In this document: one piece after another, positions 18,939 through 61,325 of the stretch
Layout: the number at the start of each line of letters is the position of its first letter
Numbering within the stretch: the first letter of the stretch is position 1
Assembly: GCF_026914185.1 (NCBI RefSeq)
Contig: NC_070570.1
Span: 1,736,001 to 1,800,000, forward strand
Source of the DNA: Puccinia triticina
Lineage: Eukaryota > Basidiomycota > Pucciniomycetes > Pucciniales > Pucciniaceae
DNA length: 64,000 nucleotides
Direction: 5' to 3'
The notes under the pieces: generated by a model
Told to the model about the DNA's origin: nothing
Database searches by the model: none
What the model saw: only the letters and a program-made list of their open reading frames with translations
Program-made: the position numbers and the translations under genes

Positions 18939-20010
18939 TAGGGGGCTTCAAAATTGATCCAGGAAGCGTTCCAGGTCCAAACTCCAGGAAAACCAAAACA
19001 CAGCCAAAAAATAATTCCTGGAGGTTCTACATTGAGACCCCCAGAAAGAGGAACTTCCTGCATTTGAACCCAGGAGAACAAGACCTGGAAATGATTATCT
19101 GTTTTAACATGTTTTGTCCCATGCCTTTGGGGTCCCCGAAGGACCAGCTCCTTCCCCCCCACGCAACCACAAGTTGATCTGACCTCATCGGACTTTCTTG
19201 TACATTTTTTTTTTCATCAGCAGTTTCAAATTAGCTCAAACTGCATCAATTCCGACTACTCTAATTGCTGTCGACCGGGAGGGACTTTCCCTGTCGACAG
19301 CCATATAAGGCAGTTGACCGGGAGAAGTCCCTCCCGGATGACTGCTTGATATGGCTGTCGGCCAGGAGGGACTCCTCCTGGTCGACTCTTGTATGTATGT
19401 GGTTGTCGGCCGGGAGGTACTGCTCCTGGTCGACTGCCTTGTATGGCTGTCAACCTTGAGATACTGCTCCCGGTAGACTGCCTTATATGGCTGTCAACCG
19501 GGAGGTACTGTACTACTGCTCCAGTCCCTCCCGGATGACTGCTTGATATGGCTGTCGACCGGGAGGGACTCCTCCCGGTTCCTCCCGGTCAACTCTTGTA
19601 TGTATGTGGTTGTCGACCGGGAGGTACTGCTCCCGGCCAACTGCCTTATATGGCTGTCGACCGGGAGGGACTCCTCTGGGTTGAGTCTTGACTGCTTGAT
19701 ATTACTGTTGAGTGGGAGGTATTTTCTAGCATGGCGGGCGGTGGACAAAAATTCGCTCGAAGTTAGTGTGAGGTGGTGGGAAAGATGATGTAGGGGTGTC
19801 GAAAAAAAAGGCGGGGGTCCGGGGTTTGAGAAGAAAGGTGGGATTTATCCTCTTTTGTCCTCTTTTAATTTCCTGATTTCCTGTTTTCCTGGATGTCCTG
19901 GAAGGGCATAGGAAGAAGGAGATCAGGTCCGCAGGAAGCGTTCCAGGTCGCTCATTTTTCCTGGAAACTCCGACCTGGAACGCTTCCTGGATCAATTTTG
20001 AAACCCCCTA
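18939..20010. mobile_element. TA-flanked inverted-repeat element (Tc1/mariner-like MITE), 1.07 kb
   Basis: The left end reads TA then GGGGGCTTCAAAATTGATCC; the right end is its inverse with one mismatch, closing CCCCC then TA at 20009-20010. The TA dinucleotides fit a Tc1/mariner-type target duplication. The inverted repeats continue inward through GGAAGCGTTCCAGG. No transposase frame is seen. The interior carries a degenerate tandem array (19255-19740). A shorter relative with the same right end is at 49780-49932. The element finishes 14 bp before the SHMT start codon. Confidence 0.78.
19255..19740. repeat. Degenerate tandem array of CGACCGGGAGG palindromic units
   Basis: Several units contain CTGTCGACCGGGAGG and a matching CTCCCGGTCGAC separated by short spacers, with ATATGGCTGTC words between them. 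Spacing is irregular (about 45 to 100 bp). Because the units have dyad symmetry, short open frames occur on both strands; they are not genes. The array lies wholly inside the TA-flanked element. Confidence 0.75.
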
Positions 20011-24533: not shown

Positions 24534-25890
24534 TTAACTTCCTGCAAAATCATCAACGGACTGATGTTGAGGGCCTGGAAGGAGACGGACAGATGCGGGG
24601 GGCGCATGTTCGTCGCCGCTAGCGCATACTGACCCCCCTGTACTTGCCATAGCTTGTGATGGGTTTCTCAAACCCATCTGAGTGGCAAACTCAACGACCT
24701 TCCTCCATCCAAGGGCCTTGGTGAAAATGTCGGCAAGCTGAAGGTCGGTCGAAACCCAATCCAGACGGACTTTCTCGCGGTACAGAAGTTCATTGATAGT
24801 GTGAAATTCACGATCAATGTGACGATGTTCCTTCCGAGTCCCGCAATCTTTGCTGATGTACACCGCCGCCTTGTTGTCGGAAAGAAGAAGAGGTGACGCG
24901 ACCGGGAAGAATTTTGAGAGGAGAGAAGACACATAGCAAGCATCCTTAGACGCCAAAGACAGTGCCATGTACTCAGCCTGGCATGTCGACCGCGCGCAGC
25001 ATGTTTGCCGTTTGGACGCCCAGGAAACAGGCGCTCCCCACGCCGTCGAAATGAAGCCATGAACAGATCTAGAACCTTCCCCGCCCCAGTTGGCATCGAC
25101 GAAGGTGGTGACACATTCGGAGACCGCGCCAGTCGCGATGATTGGAAGGGAAGAAGCAGCCGTAAACCTGACGTAGCAGACTAGATGATCAAGCGCCGTC
25201 CAATGCGAGTCATCCGGAGCCATTGAAAATCGTGCAAGAAAGTTTACCGCAAAGGTGATGTCGGGTCGAGAGCCTTGAGACAAATAGAGCAAGCAACTGA
25301 TGACAGAAAGATATGGTTTGCTCATCTCAGTAGACGGGTTAGACTGCAAATCAGAAGAAGCAATGGGAGTCCTGGTCTTGATGTTTGAAGGCATGAGAGA
25401 AGTGATTTTCTCAACTAGAAGAGGCTGATCGAGGCAAAAACCACCAGGGACCTCACGTACTCGCAACCCAACAATGCTGGAGAGTTGCTGATCCCATTTG
25501 AGATCCAGAACAGCGTCCAGTCTTGCCTTGAGCCGATCCAACAATGGTTTTGAACTTGCAGTGAAAATACCGTCGTCGACGTGGACCCACAAGAAAGCCA
25601 TGTCGACACCGTCGCGATATACATAGGTAGACTGGTCTTCTAGATTGGAAAGGAAACCAATCGTTGCAAGCCGGTTTTTTAGATGCATCCACCAACAACG
25701 GCTAACCTGACGCGTGCCGTACAACGCCTTGCGGAGTTTCAGAACACAATTAGGTGATATTTTGATGCCAGGAGGAGGACGAATATAAACGTTGTAGTCG
25801 ATGTCGCTGTGGAGAAAAGCGGACTTGACGTCAAAAGACGCCACTGGCCAGGAGAAACGCGACGCAAGGAGGTAAAAGTAGGAGTCGGGG
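24534..25890 (-). pseudogene. Copia pol, reverse transcriptase and RNase H part (frame-shifted from upstream pol)
   Basis: The open frame from 25844 to 24534 (436 aa) contains the reverse transcriptase motifs FDVKSAFLHSDI, ALYGTRQ and the catalytic WVHVDDG, then RNase H with FVDANWGG, CQAEYMALSLA, LLSDNKAAV and RHIDREFH, ending with LADIFTKAL. Upstream, the sense frame continues to about 25875 as LLASRFSWPVASFD, one frame away from the integrase frame. The shift therefore lies between the TFTSL of the upstream frame and this segment. Catalytic aspartates are present but the protein cannot be made as one polyprotein from this copy. Confidence 0.9.
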
Positions 25891-27832
25891 CAAAAGTCTC
25901 CCCTACGTTGACCCCGTGAATTTGACGGAACCCCTGAGCGACGATGCGTGCCTTGAAACGAATAACAACGCCCTCTTGATTACGCTTAACAGCAAAAACC
26001 CACCGGCAATTCAGAATTTCCAGACGAGATGAGATTGGAACCTCGTCCCAAACGTGAAGAGAAACCATCATTCCAACCTCGTTGTCACAAGCTTTCAACC
26101 ATTGGACGCCGGAATCAGATTTAACCGCCTGATTGTACGTCTCCGGCGCATCGGAAATGAAAGGTGCCACTGAGACAGCGGATTCCAGGCATGCATCCTG
26201 GATGTCAAACTCCCGCATCAACGAAAAATCACCTAGACGGCGAACTTGAATAGAACTGAGAACCGCAGTGATTGTCGTAGAATTGGAAACCATGTAGGGC
26301 AATTTGTCTTCATGAAAAGCCACCAACGCCCCGCGCTCCAAGCAGTTCTTTACTGGATCCCATAAGACCCAGCCATGAGAAACCTCCGATATGCCAACGT
26401 GGATCAGTTCCCGTGCCCTAGGAACGAACTGTTTGGGATAATTGAGATCGTGTAGGTAAGCTTTACAACCAAACACACGTATCATGTCGAGAGATGGTTT
26501 GGATTTGATACAAAGCTCATACGGGGTCTTTGAGGAACCGTCGTGTACAACTCGGTTGAATACAAATGTGGCGTGTTTGAGGGCCTGAAACCAAAGACTT
26601 TCCGGAAGTCGTGCATGGACCAGGAGAGTTTGAGCCATGTCAAGAAGACTTCGATTGGTGCGCTCCACACTTCCATTCTGATGATGCTCGTAGGGAATGG
26701 ACATCTCATGACGAATCTGGTTGTCTTTGAGGAATGTATTGAATTTATTGGAGACGAACTCGCCGCCGTTATCGGAGCGGATGCACAGAAGTTCGTGGCC
26801 TGTGTGTTTCCGGAAATTAAGAACCCATTCAATAACCGACAAAGCCGCATCTGCTTTGCGTTTGAGGCCAAAGGTGGATGTCATTCGGGAAAAAATGTTG
26901 TGGATTACCAAACCATAGACGCTACCGTCGACAGCCGGAGGAAAGGGTCCGACCAGGTCCACAGCCACAATGGCCCCAGGTTTGTCTGCAATACCTCGAC
27001 TGGGGGAATGAATAGGGACATGGCGACTCTTTGAGAGGGAACACGAAGTGCATTTCTTTGAAGTAGAATTGAAACGCTTCTCAGGAAGCCCATACACAGA
27101 ATCATGCATAATGGTACGATTGATGGTTCGAACTGCCAAGTGACCCAGTCGGAGATGCCAAACTCTGGATGAAACACTGGCTAGAGAGGGAACCGGAGTA
27201 GAAGAAGGGGTGGAAAAGGAAGGGGAAACACTGGAAGAGATAAACCATCTATAGTTGTCGACATACAAGGAAAAAATAGAGTCTGATTGGCGGAAAATGA
27301 AACAGCTGTTGTTGAATGAAACACTACCGTCCCAATGATCAAAGAAACCGACGGAGAGAACCGTGCCACGAACGCCCGAACAAAATAAAACTTGACTCAG
27401 GTGAAGATCGCCTTGATCCGTCTTGATGATAATGTCGCCAACTCCGCCTACGGAAAGGCATTCTTCGGAAGCCACGCAGAGGCGTATATTAGTAGGCCGA
27501 AATGTGACAAATAGGTCACGACGTGACGTTACATGATTGGTAGCGCCAGTGTCAACCAGGACATCATCAGATTTGTCAGGAGCCGCTGAGATAGAAGCCA
27601 AGGAGTTGTCTGTCGTTTGAAGCCGATTGGAGAGAACCGAAGACTTCTTGGGCCTCCACCCTGGAATCTTCAAGCGGGGGTCATCCAGAGGCGGAAGTCC
27701 TGCCTTAGAGCCAGGACAGTCAGGAGCCCAGTGGCCCCAATCCCAACAGGAGCTGCAAGGATTATCCGGAGTGATCCACTGAGAACCCCAGCTGTCAGCC
27801 GGAAGAGAACCGTGAGAGCCAGTTGTTGGAAG
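25739..27832 (-). pseudogene. Copia pol, zinc knuckle, protease and integrase part
   Basis: In the same frame as gag but after its TGA, this segment starts with a zinc knuckle (CSSCWDWGHWAPDC, near 27700-27740), then the aspartic protease DTGATNHV, the integrase zinc-binding HLRLGH with CTSC, and the integrase catalytic triad: VDLVGPF, IRSDNGGEF and NGSVERTNRSL. It runs into the start of reverse transcriptase (NCRWVFAVKRNQEG, KARIVAQGF) and leaves frame soon after. A normal Copia element has all this joined to gag in one reading frame. Confidence 0.9.
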
Positions 27833-29059
27833 TCATCCACGTGGTGCAGACCCTCTTCCCGAACGGCCCCCGTGTTGCCTTCCTCCTTGTCCTTGTTGAG
27901 CCGACATCGCCATCATCGCCGGGCGAGACCCAGAGACCTTCGATGATTGATCGACCCAAGTAGCAACGTTCAATAAGTCAGACCCGGAAACATTGACATT
28001 GGGAGAAATGGTGAATCGAGAATCCATCGCGTTGGCCACTTCGCTGCCGTAACGAATAAGAGCTGCATGAAAGACAAAACACAGAAGCTTATCTGTTGTC
28101 CAGCCTCCAATGCGCTCCTCGACATCCAGCAGACCCCGTTTAAAGGACTCATAGCTTGCCGCGACGGAGTCCGAAGCGTCGTCCGTAGTCCTGGCCAATC
28201 CAATCCATCGCGCAAGAAGCATTGACCAGGAGGACCCCGCAAAACGATCTTGAAGGGAGGTCCAGGCGCCGTAAGCAGTCATGCCGTGGAGAGATGGTCG
28301 AAGAGCCGGATCAATGGAGGCCTTGATGACCGTCAATACGCCTAGCGCCGTCGAAGCATCCTCCTCAAACAGACACTGGTTAAAGTAATCTTCCCGGCGA
28401 GTAACGGTGGCGACCAACTCCCTCAAGGCCGCAGACCAAGCCGGAAAATTCGACCCGTCAATAGACAGGGAAGGTTGGATGTCCTTCCCTAGTTGTTGCC
28501 ATTTGAGTTGACTGGACGCCGAGGACCCGGGAGAGGAGTTGTTGGTAAGAGCCCGGACCAAAAGAATCTTCAAGACGTCCTCATTTAAACCGTCAAAGCC
28601 TCCCGGACCAATAGCCTTTCGGAGGACGTCGTCAACAGAAGTCAAAGAGGGAGACGGTTGAGGAAGATGGGGAGAAGGTTTTGGTGAAGGCGGATCCGGG
28701 AAATCGCGAGCTTTTCCTTTGTCGGACGGGCCAGGTTGAGGGGACCGACGTTCACCAACGGGGATTGGCGGCATCGGGGAGGGTGACTTGGTCGGAGGAA
28801 CAGAGGGACGGAAATTGGGACACATGGTTGCAGGAATCGAAGAGGTTGGGGGGCTAGGATCGGAAAAACAAATAGACGGAGTGTTGACGGGATCTAGGGG
28901 AAAGGAACCAGGTACGGCGGAATGTGAACTATCACCGTTGTCGGACATAGAGTGGAAAGAAGAGACAGAGTTCGAAGATGCAGGAGATCTCGGAGGGGTA
29001 ACTCGTGCGGAGAAGTCAGGGATGATAACTTCAGGATTCCGGGAACGAGTATGAACCAT
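27833..29059 (-). CDS. Copia gag-like protein, cut by an in-frame TGA
   Basis: The 408-aa frame begins MVHTRSRNPEV. Residues 60-140 are proline/serine-rich; from about 190 on the sequence follows Copia gag (FPAWSAALRELVATV, AWTSLQDRFAG, SYESFKRGLLDVEERIGG). It ends in an RG/GR-rich tail (GGRSGRGSAPRG) directly followed by TGA and then the zinc knuckle in the same frame. The stop context is TGA-C, a relatively leaky context in eukaryotes, so either a recent CGA-to-TGA mutation or programmed readthrough would explain it. Mutation is more likely because pol is also frame-shifted. Confidence 0.85.
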   Translation of the reverse strand: MVHTRSRNPEVIIPDFSARVTPPRSPASSNSVSSFHSMSDNGDSSHSAVPGSFPLDPVNTPSICFSDPSPPTSSIPATMCPNFRPSVPPTKSPSPMPPIPVGERRSPQPGPSDKGKARDFPDPPSPKPSPHLPQPSPSLTSVDDVLRKAIGPGGFDGLNEDVLKILLVRALTNNSSPGSSASSQLKWQQLGKDIQPSLSIDGSNFPAWSAALRELVATVTRREDYFNQCLFEEDASTALGVLTVIKASIDPALRPSLHGMTAYGAWTSLQDRFAGSSWSMLLARWIGLARTTDDASDSVAASYESFKRGLLDVEERIGGWTTDKLLCFVFHAALIRYGSEVANAMDSRFTISPNVNVSGSDLLNVATWVDQSSKVSGSRPAMMAMSAQQGQGGRQHGGRSGRGSAPRG

Positions 29060-36989: not shown

Positions 36990-38260
36990 TTAAGGCTGAT
37001 CATAGATCCACTCCATGGTGTACACACTGGCAATTCAGTGGAGGGACCTCCACTTGATGCTTGGTAAACTTTTGGATTCTACACTTACTGGTGTGTATCA
37101 CTGCAACGGTGGGCCGATGTGTTACGTTACGATATTTAGGCCTAAACGTGTAACGCATTGACCGTTATTTTTAAGAAAAAGGTGTTAATTTTATCAAAAA
37201 AATATCAAATTTTCAATACTTTATGATAAATTACAATACGTTTTTGGCTGTATCTATGAAAAATGGCCAATATTTGCTGTTATTTAGGGTATTTTTGCAT
37301 ATTTTTGCACCCGTGGGTGTTATAGTTAACTTATTTTATACACTCGATAATCTTAATTTTCTGTATTGTAACTTATTTTTCAATACTTTACAATACTTTA
37401 CAGTTACGGTTAACTGTAACGGCCCACTGTTGGTATCAGCCATCAAGCCCTCCACTCAATGATTGGTTTGTACAGCCATTGAGTGGAGATACCCTCCACT
37501 TTATGACTGTTGGACAACCATTTAGTGGAGGGTGTGTCCACTCAATTAACATATGCACATTGCCAGCTACATGTCAAGTGAAGACATCCTCCACTTGATG
37601 AACAGTGGTGAATGCCATTGAGTGGAGGTATTCTCCACTCAATTACTGGTGTGTACCAGACATTGAGTGGAGGGGTTCTCCACTAGGTGATTGGTGTCTA
37701 CCAGCCATTGACTGGAGACACCCTCCAATTGATGACAGGTCAATGGGCTGGGAATAACCAGCCTGAATGACCAGCACTAAATGGGAGTCATTCTGCCTTA
37801 CCTTTCCATGTTTGACAGAGGGGTAAGTACTGTACATTGCGCTGGGAGAGTCCCAGCTCAATGAGCAGTACATACCATCCATCCAGCTGCGCTTTTCCGA
37901 GCTAGGTGGCCAGTATACATGCCTACCATGCTTGGAAAGGTTGGCTTGATGACCAGAATGTGCTGGTCATTGGGCTAGGGCTTCCCTGGCTTGATGACCA
38001 GGTGCTGGCCATTGCCTTTGAGTTCGGAGACGCCGCAGATTGATGACTGGGGCATTATAGCCATCAAGTGCGGCCTCTCCCCACCTGATGACCAGTTTGT
38101 GCTGGCAATAAATTTTGAGGAGGCCTAGATCAATGACCAGAACATACTGGTCATTGATCTTGGGATTTCCAAGCTCTGTAGGCAGCACATACTGGTCATT
38201 GGGGCTGGGCAGGCCAGGCTCAATGACCAGTATGTGTTTTACTGTTGAGGGTGGGGGCTT
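36990..38260. repeat. Degenerate array of dyad units CCACTCAAT...ATTGAGTGG
   Basis: Units of roughly 40-50 bp have the form CCACTCAAT, a short TGGTGTGTACCA-like core, then ATTGAGTGG. Toward 37900-38240 they drift into GATGACCAG...CTGGTCATTG units. Because each unit is nearly self-complementary, frames appear on both strands and are not genes. A 332-bp inverted-repeat element (37101-37432) interrupts the array. Confidence 0.75.
37101..37432. mobile_element. Inverted-repeat MITE inserted in the dyad array
   Basis: The left end CAACGGTGGGCCG (37104) faces CGGCCCACTGTTG (37420-37432), with TTACG/GTAAC words inside. GTATCA borders both sides (37095-37100, 37433-37438), and the array unit itself contains TGTGTATCAGCC, consistent with an insertion there. 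Three extra bases on the left leave the exact duplication length unsure. The interior is AT-rich and non-coding. The TTACG words recall the repeat at 1-300. Confidence 0.7.
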
Positions 38261-39963: not shown

Positions 39964-39966
39964 AAG

Positions 39967-40655
39967 CACTACCAAGATGGATGAATTTGCAATGTCGTAT
40001 ATTGATCAATATAGCGTATATTGATCAATATAGCGTATATTGATCAATTTATATTGATCAATTTTTTTTTATTATTCTTCTTGATACCTTTGTCTGTTTT
40101 CCATGTCTCCTTAATACCATTCTATAATCTCTCTCCTTCCCCTTGTGTTAGCTTCAAGCCACAGGAATCTTTTTTTTTGCCTGATAACATTCATAAATTT
40201 CTACATACACCACTCAATTCTTCCTGAAAAAAAGACATTGCAAGTTTTAGGATTAATCCAGCGTGGCTGAGGGGTCTCAATTTTTTTTTTTTTTTTTTTT
40301 TCACTTCAACAATTGATCTGTTATCAGAAGTCTGCAAATTGACTTTTTTTTCAAAAAAGGAAAAACATTGACCCCTGACCTCTCTCATGATACCATCCTG
40401 CACACATTTTTAATTTGGTTGGTTGAACTTGCTCAAGATATTGCATATCATACTTGAAGTGCTACAGGCATAGGAGGCCTTTTTGAAATGAGTTTACCAT
40501 GGGTTAGCATATTTTTGTCAGGTTCTTTTTTTTATCTACTTTTGTTATCAACCACAGATTAATGAGGAATATTTCCACATAAAATTTTGTTGGACAATTT
40601 TTCTGAATATAAAACCCAGAAATAATGTTTTTGGGGTCACATCCATTATGCAGCA
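39967..40655 (+). repeat. Left terminal inverted repeat of the CACTA element
   Basis: It matches 45965-46655 in inverse along nearly its full length, including four palindromic TATATTGATCAATATA-type words near 39999-40070, a T-rich tract near 40281 and CCATTATGCAGCAGC at the inner edge. Confidence 0.88.
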
Positions 40656-41890
40656 GCTGCAATCTGATCAGTTGCCAAATATCACTAATTTGGTAGTTTC
40701 TTGGTGTTTCTGCCACTATATCTCAACACAGGCTGGGGGTTCTTCCATGATATTGGTATCAAAATGTTCAGTAGCCCCCAAGGATCCATTGTGTACCTTA
40801 AATGACCACAAAACCCCCAAATGTGGTAGCTACAATCTCATCAGTTGCCAAATCTCACTAATTTGGTAGGTTCTTGGTGTTTCTGCCACTATATCTCAAC
40901 ACAACCTGGGGGTTCTTCCATGATATTGGTTTCAAAATGATCAATAGTCCCCAAGGATTTATTGTGTACCTTAAATTACCATGAAACTCCCTAATGTAGC
41001 CCTACGACCTGATCAGTTGCCAAATATCACTAATTTGGTAGTTTCTTGGTGTTTCTGCCACTATATCTCAAAGCAGCCTGGGAGTTCTTCCATGATATTG
41101 GTACCAAAATAATCAAATGCCCTCAAACATTCATTGAGTACCTTTGATGACCACAAAACCCCCAAATGTAGCAGCCACAATGTGATCAGTTACCAAATAT
41201 CACTAATTTGGTAGTTTCTTGGTGTTTCTGCCACTATATCTCAGCGCAGCGTGGGAGTTCTTCCATGATATTGGTACCAAAATAATCACATGCCCCTGAT
41301 GATTCATTGTGTACCTTGAATGAACACAAAACCCCCAAATGTAGCAGCCACAATGTGATCAGTTGCCAAATATCACTAATTTGGTAGTTTCTTGGTGTTT
41401 CTGCCACTATATCTCAGCACAGCGTGGGAGTTCTTCCATGATATTGGTACCATAATGATCGAAGTCCCCTGAGGATTCATTGTGTACCTTGAATGACCAC
41501 AATACCCCCAAATGTAGCAGCTAGGATGTGATCAGTTGCAAAATATCACTAATTTGGTAGTTTCTGGTGTTTCTGCCACTATATCTCAGCGCAGCGTGGG
41601 ATTTCTTCATGATATTGGTATCAAAATGATCAAATGCCCTCAAACATTCATTGAGTACCTTGGATGACCACAAAACCCCCAAATGTAGCAGCCACAATGT
41701 GATCAGTTGACAAATATCACTAATTTGGTAGTTTCTTGATGTTTCTGCCACTATATCTCAGCACAGTGTGGGAGTTCTTCCATGATATTCGTACCAAAAT
41801 CATCACATGCCCTCAAGCATTCATTGGGTACCTTGGATGACCACAAAACCCCCAAATGTAGCAGCCACAATGTGAATGGTTGCCAAATAT
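40655..41890 (+). repeat. Satellite block 1 in the CACTA element, seven units of 172-173 bp
   Basis: The word CCACTATATCTCA recurs at 40713, 40886, 41058, 41231, 41403, 41576 and 41748, so the period is 172-173 bp. Each unit also carries CCAAATATCACTAATTTGG (itself a short palindrome) and AAACCCCCAAATGTAGC. Open frames starting MAETSRNYQISDI are by-products of the unit and recur wherever a unit keeps frame. Confidence 0.92.
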
Positions 41891-44800
41891 CACTAATTTG
41901 GCAACTGATCACAGTGTGGCTGCTACATTTGGGGGTATTGTGGTCATTCAAGGTACACAATGAATCTTCAGGGGAATTTAATCATTTTGGTATCAACGTC
42001 ATGGAAGAACTCCCACGCTGAGCTGAGATATAGTGCCAGAAACACCAAGAAACTACCAAATTAGTGATATTTGGCAACTGATCACATTGTGGCTGCTACA
42101 TTTGGGGGTTTTGTGGTCATTCAAGGTACACAATGAATTTTAAGGGGCATGTGAAAATTTTGGTACCAATAGCATGGAAGAACTCCCACGCGGGGCTGAG
42201 ATATACTGGCAGAAACACCAAGAAACTACCAAATTAGTGATATTTGGCAACTGATCACATGGTTGGTGCCACATTTGGGTGTTTTGTGGTCATTCAAGAT
42301 ACTCAATGAATGTTTGAGGGCATGTGATCATTTTGGTACCAATACCATCGAAGAACTCCCATGCTGTGCTGAGATATAGTGGCAGAAATATCAAGAAACT
42401 ACCAAACTAGGGATATTTGGCAACTGATCACATTGTGGCTGCTACATTTGGGGGTTTTGTGGTCATCCAAGGTACTCAATGAATGTTTGAGGGCATTTGA
42501 TCATCTTGGTACCAATATCATGGAAGAAATCCTATGCTGTGCTGAGATATAGTGGCAGAAACATCAAGAAACTACCAAATTAGTGATATTTGTCAACTGA
42601 TCACATTGTGGCTGCTACATTTGGGGGTTTTGTGGTCATCCAAGGTACTCAATGAATTTTTGAGGGCATGTGATCATTTTGATATACCTATATCATGGAA
42701 GAACTCCCATGCTGGGCGGAGATATCGTGGCAGAAACACCAAGAAATTACCAAATTAGTGGTATTTGTCAACTGATCACATTGTGGCTGCTACATTTGGG
42801 CGTTTTGTGGTCATTCAAGGTACACAATGAATTTTTGAGGGCATTTGATCATCTTGGTACCAATATCATGGAAGAACTCCCAGGCTGCGCTGAGATATAG
42901 TGGCAGAAACACCAAGAAACCACCAAATTAGTGATATTTGGCAAATGATCACAGTGTGGCTGCTACATTTGAGGGTTTTGTGGTCATTCAAGGTACTCAA
43001 TGAATCTTTGAGCGTATGTGATCATTTTGGTACAAATATCATGGAAGAACTCCCACACTGTGCTGAGATATAGTGGCAGAAACATCAAGAAACTACCAGA
43101 TTAGTGATATTTGGCAACTGATCACATTGTGGCTGCTACATTTTGGGGTTTTGTGGTCATTCAAGGTAAAAAATGAATCTTCAGGGGCATGTGATAAATT
43201 TGGTACCAATACCATCGAAGAACTCCCACGCTGTGCTGAGATATACTGGCAGAAACACCAAGAAACTCAAATCAGTGATATTTGGCAACTGATCACATGG
43301 TGGTTGCTACGTTTGGGGGTTTTGTGGTCATCCAAGATACTCAATGAATGTTTGAGGGCATGTGATCATTTTGGTACCAATATCATGGAAGAACTCCCAT
43401 GCTGCACTGAGATATAGTGGCCAAAACACCAAGAAACTACCAAATTAGTGACATTTGGCAACTGATCACAGTGTCGCTGCTACATTTGGGGGTTTTGTGG
43501 TCATTCAAGGTACACAATGAATCTTCAGCGGTGATTAATCATTTAGGTACCAATATCATGGAAGAACTCCCACGCTGTGCTGAGATATAGTGGAGGAAAC
43601 ACCAAGAAACTACCAAATTAGTGATATTTGTCAACTGATCACATTGTGGCTGCTACATTTGGGGGTTTTGTGGTCATTCAAGGTACACAATGAATCTTCA
43701 GGGGTGAATAATCATTTTGGTAACAATATCATGGAAGAACTCCCATGCTGCGCTGAGATATAGTGGCAGAAACACCAAGAAACCACCAACTTAGTGATAT
43801 TTGGCAACTGATCACATCTTGCCTGCTACACTTGGGGGTTTTGTGGTCATTCAAGGTACTCAATCAATCTTTGAGGGCATTTGATCATCTTGGTACCAAT
43901 ATCGTGGAAGAACTCTTATGCTGCACTGAGATATAGTGGCAGAAACACCAACAAACTACCGAATTAGTGATATTTGGCAACCAATCACATTGTGGCTGCT
44001 ACATGTGGGGGTTTTGTGGTCATTCAAGGTACACAATGAATCTTTGTGGCCATTTGATCATTTTGGTACCAATATAATGGAAGGACTCCCACGCTGCGCT
44101 GAGATATAGTGGCAAAAACACCAAGAAACTACCAAATTAGTGATATTTGTCAACTGATCACATTGCGGCTGCTACATTTGCGGGTTTTGTGTCACATTGT
44201 GGCTGCTACATTTGGGGGTTTTGTGGTCATCCAGAGTACTCAATGAATGTTTGAGGGCAAGTGATCATTTTGGTACCAACATTGTGGAAGAACTCCCACG
44301 CTGGGCTGAGATATAGTGGCAGAAACACCAAGAAACTACCAAATTAGTGATATTTGGCAACTGATCACATTGTGGCTGCTACATTTGGGGTTTTTGTGGT
44401 CATTCAAGGTACACAATGAATTTTTGAGGGTGTGTTATGATTTTGGTACCAATATCATGGGAGAACCCCCATGCTGCACTGAGATATAGTGGCAGAAACA
44501 CCAAGAAACTACCAAATTAGTGATATTTTGCAACAGATCACAGTGTGGCTGCTACATTTGGGGGTATTGTGGTCATTCAAGGTACACAATGAATCTTCAG
44601 GGGCATTTGATCATTTTGGTACCAATGTCATGGAAGAACTCCCATGCTGCGCTGAGATATAGTGGCAGAAACACCAAGAAACCACCAACTTAGTGATATT
44701 TGGCAACTGACCACATCTTGGCTGCTACACTTGAGGGTTTTGTGGACCACATCTTGGCTGCTACACTTGAGGGTTTTGTGGTCATTCAAGGTACTCAATC

Positions 44801-45965
44801 AATCTTCGAGGGCATTTGATCATCTTGGTACCAATATCTTGGAATAAATCCCATGCTGCGCTGAGATATAGTGGCAGAAACACCAAGAAACTACCAAATT
44901 AGTGATATTTGGCAACTGATCACATTGTGGCTGCTACATTTGAGGTTTTTGTGGTCATTGAAGGTACACAATGAATCTTTGAGGGCATATGATCATTATG
45001 GTACCAATATCATGGAAGAACTCCCATGCTGCGCTGAGATATAGTGGCAGAAACACCAAGAAACTACCAAATTAGTGATATTTTGCAACTGATCACATTG
45101 TGGCTGCTACATTTGGGGGTTTTGTGGTCATCCAAGGTACTCAATGAGCGTTTGAGGGTGTTTGATCATTTTGGTACCAATATAATGGAATAACTCCCAT
45201 GCTGCGCTGAGATATAGTGGCAGAAACACCGAGAAACTACCAAATTAGTGATATTTGGCAACTGATCACATTGTGGCTGCTACATTTGGGGGTTTTGTGG
45301 TCATTCAAGGTACCCAATGAATCTTCAGGGGCATTTGATCATTTTGGTACCAATATCATGGAAGAACTCCCATGCTGCGCTGAGATATAGTGGCAGAAAC
45401 ACCAAGAAACTACCAAATTAGTGATATTTGGCAACTGATCACATTGTGCCTGCTACAATTGGGGGTTTTGTGCTCATTGGAGGTACTCAATCAATCTTTG
45501 AGGGCATTTGATCATCTTGGTACCAATATCATGGAAGAACTCCCATGCTGCGCTGAGATATAGTGGCAGAAACACTAAGAAACTACCAAATTAGTGAGAT
45601 TTGGCAACTGGTCAGATTTTAGCTGCTACATTTGGAGGTTTTGTGGTCATTTAAGGTACAAAATGAATTCTTGGTGGCTATTGATCATTATGATACCAAT
45701 CTCATGGAAGAACTCCCAGGCTGTGTTGAGATATAGTGGCAGCAACACCAAGAAACTACCAACTTAGTGACATTTGGCAACTGATCAGATTTTAGCTGCT
45801 ACATTTGGGTTATGTGGTAATTTAAGGTACAAAATGAATCCTTGCGGGCTATTGATCATTTTGATACCAATATCATGGAAGAACTCCCACGCTGTGTTGA
45901 GATATAGTGGCAGAAAGGGCCAGAAACTACCAAATTAGTGATATTTGGGAACTGATCACATTGTT
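41890..45965 (-). repeat. Satellite block 2 in the CACTA element, about 23 units, opposite orientation
   Basis: The complement word GAGATATAGTGG recurs about every 173 bp (for example 43409 and 43582). The switch of orientation falls inside CCAAATATCACTAATTTGG at about 41882-41901, a palindromic word, giving a symmetric head-to-head junction. A few units carry internal duplications, as near 44160-44220 and 44705-44765. Confidence 0.92.
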
Positions 45966-46655
45966 GCTGCTGCATAATGGATGCGACCCCAAATAAATTA
46001 TATTTTAAAATATTTTTGGGTTTTATATGCAGAAAAATTGTCCAATGAAATTTTATGTGGAAATATTCCTCATTAATCTGTGGTTGATAACAAAAGTAGA
46101 TAAAAAAAAGAACCTGACAAAAATATGCTAAACCATGGTAAACTAATTTCAAAAAGGCCTTCTATGCATGTAGCACTTCAAGTATGATATGCAATATCTT
46201 GAGCAAGTTCAACCAACCAAATTAAAAATTTGTGCAGGATGGTATCATGGGAGAGGTCAGGGGTCAATGTTTTTCCTCCTTTGAAAAAAAGTCGATTTGG
46301 AGACTTCTGATAACATCAATTGTTGAAGTAAAAAAAAAAAGAAAAAAAATTTGAGACCCCTCAGCTACCCTGGATTAATCCTAAAACTTGCAATGTCTTT
46401 TTTTCAGGAAGAATTGAGTGGTGTATGTAGAAATTTATGAATGTTATCAGGCAAAAGAAAAGAAAAAAAATTCCTGTGGCTTGAAGCTAACACAGGCAGA
46501 AGGAGAGAGATTATAGAATAGTATCAAGGAGACATGGAAAACAGACAAAGGTATCAAGAGGAATAATAAAAAAAAAAAATTGATCAATATAAATTGATCA
46601 ATATATGCTATATTGATCAATATACGACATCACAAATTCATCCATCTTGGTAGTG
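45965..46655 (-). repeat. Right terminal inverted repeat of the CACTA element
   Basis: It is the inverse of 39967-40655 and closely matches the right end of the second copy (51768-52424). It ends CCATCTTGGTAGTG. Confidence 0.88.
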
Positions 46656-46658
46656 AAG

Positions 46659-48611: not shown

Positions 48612-49565
48612 CAGTCTGGCACTCTCTAGAGAGTGCCACACATTCCCCTCTTGTGATAACTTAATTACAACCTGTAATGAAATCATAATTAATCAATGCC
48701 CAATTATTACTCATTTATGGTGAATTTCTGTTGATCGATTTCTCTATTTCAAAGGGGTTTCACACAACGTAAATGTGACTTACGGGTGATTTCATGGCTT
48801 TCTGACCGGGTTTTACTTGTAATGGAGCTGTGAAAGGCCCCTCCAGTGATCTGTCACCCTAATGTGCGCGCGTACACAAAGGTGACATTGGTGAAGTGGA
48901 AAAAAACTCACATGCATGTGCATGGAGACATTGGAAAACAAAAAAACACAAGAACAACTCACAAGATCATATAAGTTAAGAAGCTAGGATGTCTAGCTGA
49001 AATACGGGATTACAAACCTCCAAGCTTTACTTGACTCATATTTTCACCCTACTTTAATCCTTTTTTTGGCTCAATTCTAGATGATACTGGCCTTCTTTAG
49101 GGAACTATTCCACTTCAGATGGGCCTTTCACATCATTTTAACAGGGGTGTACATGTTGTTGATCTGCGGGAGGCCTAACCTGTGATTTGTGACAACCTTT
49201 TACACGCGCACATGAGGGTTACATTAGCAAATTGAAAACAATGACCACCTTCATATGCATGTAAATAATATTAATTGAACCCCAAGAATTCATCTCAATC
49301 AACAAACAGTTCAAATTGAATTGTGATTTGATTGTGGCCATTGTGTCTTAGTGGTTTCAACTGCATTCCAGTTGTGTTCCATTTGTCTCCTGCATGACTT
49401 CTGGATGATTTATGCATAAATCCAGGATCAGTTTCAGATCATTTGTGGATTAGTTCCAGAATTTTTCATTACTTCTTACACTACTTTAATCAAAGGCATC
49501 CAGCACAGTTACAGAAAAAGGGTACAGTATGACACTCTCTGGAGAATGCATCAAAATCCCCCCGG
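48612..49565. repeat. Dispersed repeat, family with CACTCTCCAGAGAGTG ends, copy 2
   Basis: It is colinear with 22690-23640 and keeps a right terminus ACACTCTCTGGAGAATGCAT then CAAAATCCCCCCGGG, the inverse of the left end at 22498. It lacks the fold-back insertion found at 23325, giving the empty site near 49302. No transposase is encoded. Confidence 0.7.
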
Positions 49566-49779
49566 GTGTCTACACCTCTATAATATTTCTTTTTTTGGCT
49601 GCATCTTAAAATCACACTCAAGCATGCTATATACATTGCCGTTGCAGGCTAGATTTTTACTTTGAATTTACCAGCACCAAAAAAACACCATTCTTGTATC
49701 AAGAATAATATATTGAATTACTCAAAAACTATGATTACAAAACACATAGTATTTTACAACATTCACAAATTCTTATTGA

Positions 49780-49932: not shown

Positions 49933-52424
49933 TTGTGTTTTGACAGATCCTAAACCATATGGCAGAAGGATTCCCACACTGAGATGAGATATAGTGGCAG
50001 AAACACCACAAAACTACCAAAGTGGTGACATTTGGGAACTAATCAGACTGTAGCTGCTACATTTGGGGGTTTTGTGGTCAGTAAAAGTTCATAATGAAAC
50101 TTTAAGGGCTTGTAAAAATTTTGGTAACCATCTGGAAGAAGGATTCCCACACTGGGATGAGATATTGTGGCAGAAACACCAAGAAACTACCAAAGTGGTG
50201 ACATTTGGGAACTAATCAGACTGTAGCTGCTACATTTGGGGGTTTTGTGGTCAGTAAAAGTTCATAATGAAACTTTGAGGGCTTGTAAACATTTTGGTAA
50301 CCATCTGGAAGAAGGATTCCCACTCTGGGATGAGATATCGTGGCAGAAACACCAAAAAGCTACCAAAGTAGTGATATTTGGGAACTGATCAGACTGTATG
50401 TTGGATTGAAATGTCACATGCATTACACAGTTGCATAAACTTCCATGACATTCTAGAAAGGAGTTCTCTGGACTGAGTGCGCTGGGACAACTCGCGGGCA
50501 GGACCAACAATTTTCAAAGCTCAAACAACACTCAAGACCCAAGGATCAAACTATCAACTCAAGCCGAACAATCAAGACTCAATCAGTACTTCACATCAAT
50601 ATCACGCAAGGTACCCAGGGGGAGATCTAGAGGTATCATTAACTGGCTCTGTCATCAAATTGGGTTGTTGTTACTTATGATCAATTTCTGTTGTTTTAGT
50701 TTCTGTCTCAAGTGTACCGTCATCTTATCGTCTGTCTGTCTTTGATTTTTTGTTTTTACTCATCAGGTAACAACTCTTTCATTTATTCACCGTTGTTTTT
50801 TCATCATTGATTCTTCTGCTTGTTTTTTTGTTCAAGTTATTACTACTACTGGTTTTATCAAGTGTTTGCAATACAAGATCAGACTTCTCAATCTTACACT
50901 GTAGCTGCAACATTTGGGGGTTTTGTGGTCAGTAAAGGAACATAATGAATCTTTGGGGGCTTTTCAACATTGTGGTCAACATCTTGCAGAAGGATTCCCA
51001 CGATGGGATGAGATATAGTGGCAAAAACACCAAGAAACTACCAGGTAGTGAAATTTGGGAACTGATCAGACTGTAGCTGCTACATTTGGGGGTTTTGTGG
51101 TCAGTAAAGGTACATGATGAATCTTTGGGGGCCTGTAAACATTTTGGTAACCATATGGCAGGAGGATTCCCGTGCTGATATGAGATATAGTGGCAGAAAC
51201 ACCAAAGAACTACCAAAGTAGTGATATTTGTGAACTGATCAGACTGTAGCTGCTACATTTGGGGGTTTTGTGGTCAGTAAAGGTACGTAATGAAGCTTTG
51301 GGGGCTTATCAACATTTTCGCCACCATCTGGCAAAAGGATTCCCACGCTGGTATGAGATATAGTGGCAGAAACACCAAGAAACTACCAAAGTAGTGATAT
51401 TTGGGAACTGATCAGACTGTAGCTGCTACATTTGGGGGTTTTGTGGTCAGTAGAAGTAAATAATGAAACTTTGGGGGCTTTTGAACATTTTGGTAACCAT
51501 ATGGCAGAAGAATTCCCAATTTGCAATGAGATATAGTGGCAGAAACACCAGGAAACTACCAAAGTAATGATATTTGGAAACTGATCAGACTGTAGCTGCT
51601 CCATTTGGGGTTTTGTGGTCAATAAAGGTACATAATGAAACTTTGGGGGCTTGTCAAAATTATGGCAATAATATCTTGGAAGAATTCCCAAGCTGGGATG
51701 AGATATAGTGGCAGAAACACCAAGAAACTATCAAAGTAGTGATATTTGGCAATTGATCAGATTGTAGCTGCTGCATAATGGATGTGACCCCAAACACAAT
51801 ATTTCTGTGTTTTATATGCAGAAAAATTGTCCGATGAAATTTTATGTGGAAATATTCCTCATTAATCTGTAGTTGATAACAAAAGTAGATCAAAAAAAAA
51901 CCTGACAAAAATATGCTAAACCATGGTAAACTAATTTCAAAAAGGCCTTCTATGCATGTAGCACTTCAAGTATGATGTACAATATCTTCAGGAAGTTCAA
52001 CCAACCAAATTAACAATTTGTGCAGGATGGTATCATGAGACAGGTCAGGGGTCAATGTTTTTCCTTTTTTGAAAAAAAGTAGATTTGGAGACTTCTGATC
52101 ACATCAATTGTTGAAGTAAAAAAAAAAAAAAAAAAAAAAAACCCTCAGCCACCCTGGATTAATCCTCAAACTTGCAATGTCTTTTTTTCATGAAGAATTG
52201 AATGGTGCATGTAGAAATTTATGAATATTATCAGGCAAAAAAAAAAAAAATCCTGTGGCTTGAAGCTAACACAGGAGGAAGGAGAGAGATTATAGAAGAT
52301 TATTAAGGAGACATGGAACACAGACAAAGGTCTCAAGAGGAAAAAAAAATGATCAATATAAATTGATCAATATACACTATATTGATCAATATACAAAATC
52401 ACAAATTCATCCATCTTGGTAGTG
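49933..52424. mobile_element. Second CACTA copy, 5'-truncated, with its own diverged satellite array
   Basis: It keeps the right terminal repeat (51768-52424), ending CCATCTTGGTAGTG like the intact element, and a tandem array of the same 173-175-bp unit with consistent differences (GTAAAGGTACATAATGAA, CAAAGTAGTGATATTTGGG). GAGATATAGTGG recurs at about 51180, 51353, 51528 and 51701. Its left CACTA terminus is absent, so it is incomplete. A solo LTR interrupts the array at 50399-50898. Confidence 0.82.
50399..50898. mobile_element. Solo LTR, 500 bp, TSD CTGTA
   Basis: It begins TGTTGGATTG and ends TCTTACA, with CTGTA on both sides (50394-50398, 50899-50903). The flanking satellite unit reads on across the site (GATCAGA-CTGTA-GCTGC), which confirms the borders. 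No internal region remains, so it arose by recombination between the LTRs of a complete element. Confidence 0.85.
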
Positions 52425-58386: not shown

Positions 58387-59517
58387 ATGCCCAAGTCCAT
58401 CAATCTCATTGATCCAGTTGTCCTAATGGACACCATCCCACCACTCTCATCAACACCCAACCCAACAACACCTACTCCAATGGCTCAGTCCAAGAAAACC
58501 AAGCCCAAGAAGCCAACAGCCAAACCAAAGAAACTCAATGAAAGCAATGTCAAAACTCCCAACCACACTTGGACCACCGATCAAAAGATGACTCTTCTTG
58601 AGTCTATCGCAACTCAGTACGCCGCTGGCTTAGAAACTGATAACGGTGGCTTGAAGAAGGAAGCCTGGCCTATCGTCCAGGAGAAACTGAATACTAAGTA
58701 CAGTCTTGCACTCAGCCTTGATCAAATCAAAAACCAGAAGAACGCGCTCCGGACCCTCTACATTGATTACAAATTTCTTCGAGACCAAAGCGGCTTTGGT
58801 TGGAACAACAAACGGGGTACAGTCACAGCCGATGAATCTGTGTGGGAAGAGTTGATAGCCGCTCATCCTCGTCGAAACTTTGCAAGACTCAAGGACAAAC
58901 CTTTTCCGGTATACGATCTTGCCTACAGTGTATTTACGGGCAAGGCGGCAACTGGAGAAATAGCGAATTCCGAGCTTGTTCCGACTACCACCAAAGCAGT
59001 CAAGCTCACTCCAGCAGCCAAGAGAAAGATTGTTCCGCTCAGTGATGATGACAGCAGTAGCGATATCGATATTGAACCCAAATCCTCTCTCAAGACCGCT
59101 GGTTCAAATACAACAAAACGAGTACGCGAATCAAAGAATGCGCTCATCAAATCCGAGATGGAAAGCATCAGCGGCGCGATAAATGCTGTATCGGAAACCT
59201 CGAAAAATCTTGTGGGTGAATTCGCCAAGATTGCCTCAGCCGTCTCTAGCAACCAGCCACCCCGCCAACCTTCCACTTCTGCCATTGCTCATGGCGAAAC
59301 CCAAAGGACCATTTCTGATACCGCACTTCAAGTTTGTGCTGACCAATACTTGAACAAAGTCTCGGATGAAACTTATGTCGATTTTGCATCCGTCCTCGAG
59401 AACAACGGCTCGGCCCGCACCTTCCTTACCCTCCTTTGGACTGCGAACGATCATGTTTGCCAGGTGTGGCTTGAGAAGAAGGTTAAAGAGGCAAAGGAAA
59501 ACAAAAAGAAAGAATAA
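58387..59517 (+). CDS. Myb/SANT-like DNA-binding protein of the Harbinger element
   Basis: The 376-aa protein should bind the element ends and help bring the transposase to the nucleus and DNA. The domain at about residues 59-165 follows the Myb/SANT-like pattern: TWTTDQKMTLLESIATQY, then DQIKNQKNALRTLYIDYK, then GFGWN and WEELIAAHP, with the tryptophans spaced as in a trihelical fold. The N-terminus is lysine/proline-rich (KKTKPKKPTAKPKK, a likely nuclear signal). The middle is an acidic serine/aspartate stretch and the C-terminal part is helical, ending in a lysine-rich tail. Met14 is an alternative start. No frameshift or stop is seen. Confidence 0.88.
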   Translation: MPKSINLIDPVVLMDTIPPLSSTPNPTTPTPMAQSKKTKPKKPTAKPKKLNESNVKTPNHTWTTDQKMTLLESIATQYAAGLETDNGGLKKEAWPIVQEKLNTKYSLALSLDQIKNQKNALRTLYIDYKFLRDQSGFGWNNKRGTVTADESVWEELIAAHPRRNFARLKDKPFPVYDLAYSVFTGKAATGEIANSELVPTTTKAVKLTPAAKRKIVPLSDDDSSSDIDIEPKSSLKTAGSNTTKRVRESKNALIKSEMESISGAINAVSETSKNLVGEFAKIASAVSSNQPPRQPSTSAIAHGETQRTISDTALQVCADQYLNKVSDETYVDFASVLENNGSARTFLTLLWTANDHVCQVWLEKKVKEAKENKKKE

Positions 59518-60041
59518 ATTGTAAGCATGACTTGTATTGTGAATCTGTCATTCCTCCACTCGCTGATCTATTTATGTGCTTCACCTTTTCATCATCAATC
59601 ATGTTTAACAGTCACTTGGTTGCATTCTATTGCTCTTATTGCTCTTATTGATATGGTTCTCTTTTCCGATTGATCAAAATACGATCCTCTTTCTCAATCG
59701 ATCAAATACAATCCTCTTTCTCGATTGATCAAAATTCAGTTCTCTTTCTTTCCCAATTGATTGATCAATCAATACAGTTGTATTTCCCAATTGTGATTTA
59801 TTGCTCTGATTTTGTCTTTATCGGCCGTTATCCATTGCTTTTATCACTCGGTCTTAAAATCATATAGCTGATCTTATTGATATACTTGTCTTGCTTTGCA
59901 ATTACGTATTGCTGAAAGGTTACATGGTCGATCGAGAGTGTTGCACTGCCAAATGTGAGATAAAAATGAAGACCAAAGAGAAAAGAAAAAAGCTAGCAGA
60001 AAAAAAATCAAATGTTTAAGAATCGCAAAGGGTACAGGCCA

Positions 60042-61325
60042 TCAACTTTGATTTTTGTAGGTGAAATATTGAGTCCACAATTTTTTAGCTAGACGGTCGC
60101 GTCGATGCTTCATTATTGAATCCTCTTCAGTGACATCAAAGGATTCATCTTCCCCCATCCGTGTACGTAAAAGTGTTTGTGCGTCTTCGTCCGGATCGTC
60201 GAAGAGATTGTCAACACTCTCATGACAGCGGATGTAGTTCCACAGCATGCATAGCGCGTAGACTAATCGGACTTGCTTCTTTAGTTCGATCTCGGGGGCC
60301 GATTGGAGGATAGTTAATTTCCTCTTTATGCATCCAAACATGCGCTCAACAATATTCCGAAGTGTTGCGTGTCGTAAGTTATAAAGTTCTTTTTTGTTCG
60401 CTGGCCTGAGTCCTGCAGCGGCCTGTTCTTTCAGATGGTATTGGGTGCCTCGGAATGGAGTCATCAACCCTTGTCGAAGGCCATAACCGGCATCGGCAAG
60501 AAAGTATTGCTTTTGAGGTATTTTCAGGCCTTTCGAAGTCGCATCGTTAAACACTCGAGTGTCGTGGGCACTTCCTTCCCAACCCGCGAGAATATAGACG
60601 AACTTGAAGTTGAAATTCACAGCAGCAAGAACATTTTGCGCAATGAAATGCTTGCGATTTCGCCAAGGGCTTTGGGCTTCGGCAGGTACTTGTGCTGGGA
60701 TAAATACTCCATCAATGGCTCCTAGTGCGTTCTTGAATGCTCGATACTTTGGGTTTCGCGCGATCTCCTCTGGCTGCTTGCATGAATTCATGTCAAAGTT
60801 GACATAATTTGGGTAGATTGCTATCAACGAGTCGAGGACTATTCCAAAGTAGCTAGTTGAGGGAATCTTTGTTAGATATTTGATCATTCAAATTCAAATA
60901 TCAAGAAGAAGAAAAAGGAGGGCTTACCGGGTAATAGTGAACAAACCACGCCGGAATTTGACCGCCGTCTGGCGCATGGTGTTGTTGTGGCAAACAATAT
61001 CTAAGAAGATGAGCACCTGCTCTTCGACCGAGACCAATCTTCCATTTTTAAGCAGCCCATTCATCGTCGACTCCTCAACAAGACTGTTAAATGTTGCTCG
61101 TTCCATTCGAGTTATTTCACGAAAGAGTTCTGGTCTGACTTCGTCTAGTAGGAACCGAGTGTACCTGGCTCGCCCACCATCGCCGTAGTATGCCTCGTAT
61201 GTGTTCCAGAGGCTTCCGAGGTATTTGCAAGCAACCCCGGCGGCGGCAAATGACAGTAAGATATTGTTCATCTCCATGAGCGATGTCGCGGCGGCGGCAA
61301 GTGTGACAAAGAGGTTGTTGTCCAT
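60042..61325 (-). CDS. PIF/Harbinger DDE transposase, two exons
   Basis: Exons on the minus strand are 61325-60928 and 60852-60042; the 75-nt intron has GTAAGC and CTAG borders and joins TITR to YFGIVLDSL in phase, giving 402 aa. The N-terminal half has the helical region found before the catalytic core (EITRMERATFNSLVEE). The catalytic domain (DDE_Tnp_4 type) shows the first Asp in AIDGVFIPA, the second in FLADAGYGL and the Glu in NIVERMFGCIKRK, with GSAHDTRVF between them. It ends in an acidic and basic tail. All three catalytic residues are present, so the enzyme may be active on its own ends and perhaps on the TAA-flanked MITE at 6465. Confidence 0.93.

Follow-up and report, generated by a model that had tools for sequence, protein, structure and literature searches.

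A CACTA-like transposon of Puccinia triticina filled with two mirror-image blocks of a 173-bp satellite

The element described here, a CACTA-like (En/Spm-type) transposon at 39967–46655 of a 64,000-nucleotide window of Puccinia triticina DNA (C13:1736001–1800000, in a genome of 122.8 Mb and 18 contigs), is close in form to two Drosophila elements. According to the available part of its description, Tetris of Drosophila virilis is a foldback element placed in the Mutator superfamily, with 8–10-bp duplications and three structurally complete copies, and satellite arrays have been built from its repeats (PMC4079207). The element in the window resembles it in being non-autonomous, in having long inverted ends with tandem repeats of variable number (about 220 bp long in Tetris, beside a flanking domain), and in that the source of its transposase has not been found. 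Unlike Tetris, which has a middle domain and whose TIR-220 repeat and flanking domain, in the same account, have 37 bp in common, it has no middle domain and no significant similarity between unit and ends, and it has 3-bp duplications, CACTA ends and 574 termini. Galileo, of the P superfamily, likewise has long, internally repetitive inverted ends, and the accessible text places transposase-binding sites in its tandem repeats (PMC3688188). The present element belongs to another superfamily, and the transposase of Galileo, as that text has it, is known. The repeats of Galileo are not known to fill the element.

Satellites have also been found in CACTA elements. A 16.5-kb CACTA element of Chenopodium quinoa, in the portion of the report available, contains an array of 5,550 bp with 32.5 monomers, each 171 bp long, and this array was found in further elements too (PMC8978399); that element has retained its coding sequence, with a single array towards the 3′ end, whereas the window element has two blocks in inverted orientation and lacks coding DNA. 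Another link between CACTA and satellite is that of Jozin and CficCl-61-40, in which, by the available text, a 40-bp fragment of tnp2 seeds the satellite (PMC7320549); the present unit, in contrast, has no match of at least 60 bp in 30 loci that carry the Tnp2 domain (PF02992). In common bean, pvCACTA1 is, as here, an abundant non-autonomous CACTA for which no large protein-encoding partner was found, and it differs in that its elements are small and that the accessible text mentions no satellite (PMC4938662). A paper that describes CACTA elements of rusts uses neither "satellite" nor "tandem" in its main text (PMC12210899), and among the titles and abstract openings listed by a literature search that covered few subscription papers, none described a satellite-filled CACTA element with inverted blocks in a fungus. 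The foldback form is known from Tetris and Galileo and the satellite-bearing CACTA from quinoa; here they occur with CACTA ends, in a fungus.

The window element is 6,689 bp long, opens with CACTACCAAG at 39967, closes with CTTGGTAGTG at 46655 and has AAG on both flanks. Its terminal inverted repeats (TIRs) of 694 and 690 bp are 90% identical to each other by BLAST, and the interior between them consists of 173-bp units only, for which Tandem Repeats Finder gives a period of 173 at 40648–41901 and 41896–45975. Units on the two strands number 7 and 23 by BLAST, in a structural comparison that ignored pieces shorter than 60 bp, or 7 and 25 by a profile hidden Markov model (HMM), partial units included; partial duplications of 34 and 36 bp lie within the array at 44158–44225 and 44709–44781. 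The two blocks are 86–90% complementary across about 1.2 kb, and the switch in orientation between them (41841–41945) forms a near-perfect hairpin, with −76 kcal/mol when folded as RNA. Because the interior satellite lies in mirror-image blocks, the whole element amounts to a giant foldback, with the long inverted ends, internal tandem repeats and little or no middle that characterize this form; besides the mirrored 173-bp blocks, both ends contain palindromic subterminal repeats of 14–19 bp, which are candidate binding sites of the transposase. No stop-to-stop frame of at least 150 aa occurs in the element. An earlier note on this DNA, made from the letters alone, had described CACTA termini with AAG duplications, inverted repeats of about 690 bp enclosing nothing but some 30 opposed units that meet in a palindrome, and thus no coding DNA, and each of these features was recovered in the window copy.

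Throughout the genome, the 23-nt terminus of the element occurs at 574 sites with up to two mismatches (285 and 289 on the two strands; the reversed pattern at 0). Exact termini number 327, flanked by A in 125 cases, C in 52, G in 41 and T in 109; analyses that depend on position use the 293 of these exact termini, of subfamilies A and B, that were listed, with C14–C18 under-counted. Among the 293 are 97 inward-facing neighbour pairs less than 40 kb apart (median 8.1 kb), and 68 pairs lie within 12 kb, where shuffling the strands 1,000 times gave 20 such pairs on average and never more than 31. An identical 3-bp duplication flanks 22 of 24 pairs tested, 15 of them with A/B termini and 9 with those of a sister family described below: 11 of 13 in the first set, the sister at C1, and all 10 further pairs (2 with A/B ends, 8 sister). 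Many moves of these elements made 3-bp duplications, and the window element is a mobile, CACTA-like one. The note had held that the transposon interpretation would fail if these ends and the duplication occurred at this locus only, which is contradicted by the counts of termini and duplications, and its expectation that copies would be numerous, share their termini and vary in unit number was borne out.

Fourteen copies were read with both end repeats, seven of subfamily A and seven of subfamily B (L057 is included, with its first 49 bp unmatched), along with a truncated second member in the window (49953–52424), whose left end was not found there, and one complete sister. All 14 have the order TIR, array, inverted array, TIR, with − units at the left end and + units at the right; one of them, C1_6831, has an additional short switch at its junction. 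Their unit number ranges from 20 to 64, a variation that speaks against the array being an assembly collapse, and the unit profile covers 29–80% of copy length, the remainder being end repeat and inserted DNA. No stop-to-stop frame of at least 150 aa was present in any of the seven A copies, and among the B copies, frames lie outside the array in C1_6660, C1_6831 and L045, in the last of which a hAT transposase is encoded. A 463-aa frame in L050 was considered as gag-like and dropped, as Pfam gave no support. The boundary between TIR and array was found at 385 genome sites (up to three mismatches) and the inner tip of the TIR at 375 (up to one mismatch), the reversed patterns at 0; since these counts, from sets that are not nested, are so similar, little room is left for same-ended elements without an array.

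Within subfamily A, the junction of the two blocks is a fixed feature. Of the 64 loci of the A junction word (up to two mismatches), 40 match it exactly, and 61 lie no more than 25 kb from a family end on one side or both; such recurrence of one junction shows that the copies of subfamily A go back to a master element. Both flanking termini were found for 42 junctions; when these loci are oriented by the junction word, the same side is the shorter in 34 (P = 7e-5), and the median distance from junction to end is 2.2 kb on one side (58 loci) and 5.0 kb on the other (45 loci). Units of the short block agree by position counted from the junction (0.933 vs 0.867; 0 of 500 shuffles), and those of the long block show no such agreement near the junction (0.887 vs 0.884; 39 of 500) but do agree at the right end (0.893 vs 0.863; 0 of 500). 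The end repeats of A are also polar: among 24 end sequences carrying both motifs, identity is 97.4% for long–long, 96.4% for short–short and 94.7% for long–short comparisons. Positional match and end polarity together imply that whole polar elements multiplied, with changes in length mainly inside the inner long block. Multiplication in subfamily A was of entire elements and started from a master whose junction was fixed; the short block was stable and kept the order of its units, and the other was variable. The switch lies at unit positions 1/1 in six of seven A copies and at 1/3 in L048, whose central spacer has 31 bp compared with 13 bp in the other A copies; the 18 extra bp look as if more of the palindrome had been retained. 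In subfamily B it lies at 79–92/43–45 in four of seven copies (C1_4712, C1_6831, L052 and L057), at 99/49 in L043, and at different points again in C1_6660 and L045.

To judge from consensus comparison, a sister family contains a satellite nearly identical to that of A, which faces the other way and sits within different ends. The sister terminus CACTACAAACATGG has 531 sites (up to two mismatches; reversed pattern 0). Its end begins CACTACAAAC, that of the window element CACTACCAAG, both of them CACTA starts. The sister at C1:2735558–2747061 is 11.5 kb long, with an ATA duplication and 38 + units followed by 25 − units, an order that is the reverse of that in A and B; a second sister pair, at C2:165541–171815, also has + units adjoining its left end. 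Sister and A ends can be aligned over their first 80–107 bp only, with 80–88% identity, and the consensus units of sister and A differ at 3 of 171 positions. A near-identical unit inside ends that are for the most part unrelated indicates separate histories of array and ends in A and sister. By the same comparison, A and B differ at 24 of 171 positions and their end repeats are 92% alike, so that discordance of array and ends appears clearly for the sister and not for A versus B; single units (77%, with 451 of 535 unit hits kept as near full length) had suggested a divergence between the two arrays far beyond that of the ends, an impression given up in view of the consensus, with ends about 8% different.

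We propose, with a probability of roughly 80%, that the window element is a non-autonomous CACTA-like transposon with a foldback-like interior of satellite in two mirror blocks, and that it disperses this satellite. In the mechanism we envisage, an ancestor with mirrored subterminal arrays would have lost its coding core so that array joined array, a Tnp2-type CACTA transposase produced elsewhere would move the element in trans, unequal exchange or gap repair after excision would lengthen or shorten the array, and repair between elements could transfer an array across families. The CACTA starts and the 3-bp duplication conform to this superfamily, and the length of the duplication differs from the 8–10 bp of Mutator-type foldbacks. 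Among 150 scored matches to PF02992 (of 179 candidates in the genome), a source of transposase acting in trans is plausible. The autonomous relative that the note had called for did not emerge among these 150 matches when they were compared with the 293 listed A/B and 100 listed sister termini; none of the 14 read copies holds any of the 150, and the 30 PF02992 loci mentioned above (L009–L038) had no match of at least 60 bp to unit or end repeat within about 1.5 kb.

Several observations weigh against this proposal. The loss of the core presupposes an array–genes–array ancestor, and none was seen; no same-ended element with its own transposase was found either, so that the superfamily placement rests on the termini and the duplication length. 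The sister comparison comes from one fully read element. Two of the 24 pairs (L051 and L053) lack a matching duplication, the usual short side was not the shorter in 8 of 42 loci, and in L048, oriented by the junction word, the longer block lies on that side, with units that match those of other copies in reverse order. Three PF02992 matches lie between matching ends with perfect duplications, 30.9, 33.4 (sister) and 40.3 kb apart. In the 40.3-kb case, on C3, four inner stretches had no units, and a − unit lies near the right end at C3:615300–615499 (L101), in a place occupied by + units in all 14 copies read. In the 30.9-kb case, on C9, a − array lies at the left, nine stretches in 1320.0–1339.2 kb have no units, and at the right a − array is followed by a + array with the A junction at C9:1346947; the array breaks at L102:652 into foreign sequence starting ACACCAGGG. 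The transposase at C9:1332898 was rejected as the family's own, as it sits in about 20 kb of DNA inserted into the long block of an A copy. Two other candidate partners were likewise set aside: C11:2414262 lies outside an element whose end is at L059:1240, and L060, around the locus C6:2728597, has no units.

As a separate observation, a terminus-like motif recognized by eye, ACACC.GGG ... CACTCTCT.GAGAGTG, occurs from L102:653 on, at L101:1–60 and in the window at about 49530–49580; it stands at the edge of inserted DNA, which in the C9 case carries a Tnp2 frame, and may be the sign of a further transposon family, one that uses the satellite as insertion site.

What the arrays do for the element can be read in several ways. 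It is quite possible, if a little short of even odds, that the satellite is cargo without a role, a repeat trapped between CACTA ends, enlarged by unequal exchange and dispersed by transposition. The spread of unit number across the 14 copies, the lack of positional orthology among long-block units near the junction and the denser A/B differences in mid-unit (15 of 65 positions, vs 9 of 106) would be expected of such cargo; a mirror layout in all 14 copies, the near-equal counts of TIR–array boundaries and inner TIR tips, and the position kept by units counted from the right end would not. The layout is found in A, B and sister, each with a different junction point, which agrees with a more tentative possibility, namely that the arrays may serve as cis-acting ends in which many units raise the affinity for transposase and symmetry is kept as both ends must match, a role that the available texts on Galileo and Tetris propose for internal tandem repeats (PMC3688188, PMC4079207). 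TGATCA is present in the end repeats and occurs 45 times in the arrays of the window element, compared with 1.7 expected from base composition for sites that are non-independent copies, AACTGATCA is contained in the consensus units of A, B and sister, and a 37-bp run of the unit has no difference between A and B. The common TGATCA and the conserved stretches are weak hints of function: the run free of A/B differences has borderline significance (P = 0.053), the contrast between parts of the unit (Fisher, 0.012) concerns regions picked after inspection, the sister units are oppositely oriented relative to the ends, and chance could produce a mirror layout in three lineages. A relation of unit to ends was also the note's proposal, which saw in the units enlarged subterminal repeats, and it was not upheld: between one unit and three parts of one end repeat there was no significant similarity, as 108, 477 and 370 of 500 resamples reached the observed score.

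Less likely, and in our view improbable, is that the family acts as a source of small RNAs, a transcript through both blocks giving more than 1.2 kb of double-stranded RNA that would silence both family and helper. Given the complementarity of the blocks, RNA read through them would be double-stranded, the junction adds a hairpin, and a rust relative derives small RNAs from transposons, as stated in the accessible part of PMC8444563; the Rfam search with unit or junction, in turn, gave nothing at gathering score, and of its seven matches below it, the six to microRNAs at the hairpin, the best being MIR5649 (47.9 of 100 bits, E = 1e-7), are what any long hairpin would give. We give rather poor odds to the idea that the satellite is a longer-lived replicator that changes vehicle, with arrays swapped between CACTA backbones and the mirror layout re-established at different junctions since movement would need a pair of like-facing arrays; if so, the same 173-bp array would outlive its carriers, in two CACTA families and opposite orientations. 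Least credible, and very improbable, is a precursor of centromeric or heterochromatic satellite, the step that the note had suggested. The unit is of nucleosome-like length, and a 35-nt piece of it, which detects 81% of the profile units in 16 read elements, has 7,025 genome sites (up to three mismatches; reversed pattern 0), from which we estimate about 8,700 units, 1.5 Mb or about 1.2% of the genome. In stem rust, moreover, CACTA elements make up 33% of one centromere in the available text (PMC8444563), and on C1 14 of 20 listed termini fall within 1 Mb from 6.11 Mb (cluster 6.11–6.85 Mb; P = 0.0005 for loci). The listed termini are nonetheless dispersed over all 18 contigs, the other 17 showing no significant clustering (P at least 0.075; placement by deciles used 12 contigs of known length), and two published sets of rust centromeres are mostly rich in long terminal repeat retrotransposons, as far as the available texts go (PMC8444563, PMC12129025). 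The 100 exact unit hits listed among the 7,025 form 17 clusters; 16 of these have a family end or inner TIR tip no more than 5 kb away, and the one at C2:2300660–2301218 does not. Of the genome search that the note had recommended, the many same-ended copies with varying units materialized, and the long arrays outside transposons did not, in so far as these sampled clusters go.

The hundreds of ends of this transposon family, in a near chromosome-scale genome, form a natural series that shows, unit by unit, how a satellite inside a moving element grows, is lost, inverts or is exchanged, and they make the seeding and dispersal of satellites by transposons directly testable. For annotation, it matters that such units make up an estimated 1.2% or so of the genome and that those sampled lie mostly within transposons.

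Table 1. Coordinates of the satellite-bearing elements in the window and of their parts
Feature	Position	Strand	Basis or remark
Target-site duplication AAG, left copy	39964..39966		sequence and BLAST
Left TIR, 694 bp, starts CACTACCAAG	39967..40660	+	40 scored genome matches, 93–100% identity in matched part
Subterminal 14–19-bp repeats with palindrome ATTGATCAAT	39996..40064		similar stretch at 46577–46605; seen in sister end too
Short satellite block, 7 units of ~173 bp	40679..41886	−	Tandem Repeats Finder, BLAST, profile HMM
Orientation switch/hairpin	41841..41945		junction word 41874–41905 at 64 loci (up to two mismatches)
Long satellite block, 23–25 units of ~173 bp, opposed orientation	41898..45944	+	Tandem Repeats Finder, BLAST, profile HMM
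Right TIR, 690 bp, finishes CTTGGTAGTG	45966..46655	−	sequence and BLAST
Target-site duplication AAG, right copy	46656..46658		sequence and BLAST
Second (subfamily-B) element, 8 units, break at ~50398–50898	49953..51776	+	Tandem Repeats Finder, BLAST, profile HMM
Right inverted repeat of second element, 88% to that of first	51766..52424	−	BLAST

Other repeats and genes surround these elements in the window. A divergent pair at 58387–60887, encoding a Myb/SANT-like protein (+) and a DDE_Tnp_4 transposase (−), is what we take to be the gene pair usual for PIF/Harbinger elements. At 13187–18414 lies a non-LTR retrotransposon with a 1,308-aa frame for endonuclease, reverse transcriptase and RNase H, preceded upstream by a 434-aa frame without a Pfam match, and at 24534–29059 are frames for a Copia-type reverse transcriptase and integrase in overlapping pieces. 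Short tandem arrays occur at 19267–19510 (44 bp) and at 37448–37717 (42–45 bp, with alternating inverse words). The window also encodes a PRP22/DHX8 helicase, whose best match, among the matches listed, is from Puccinia sorghi at 86%.

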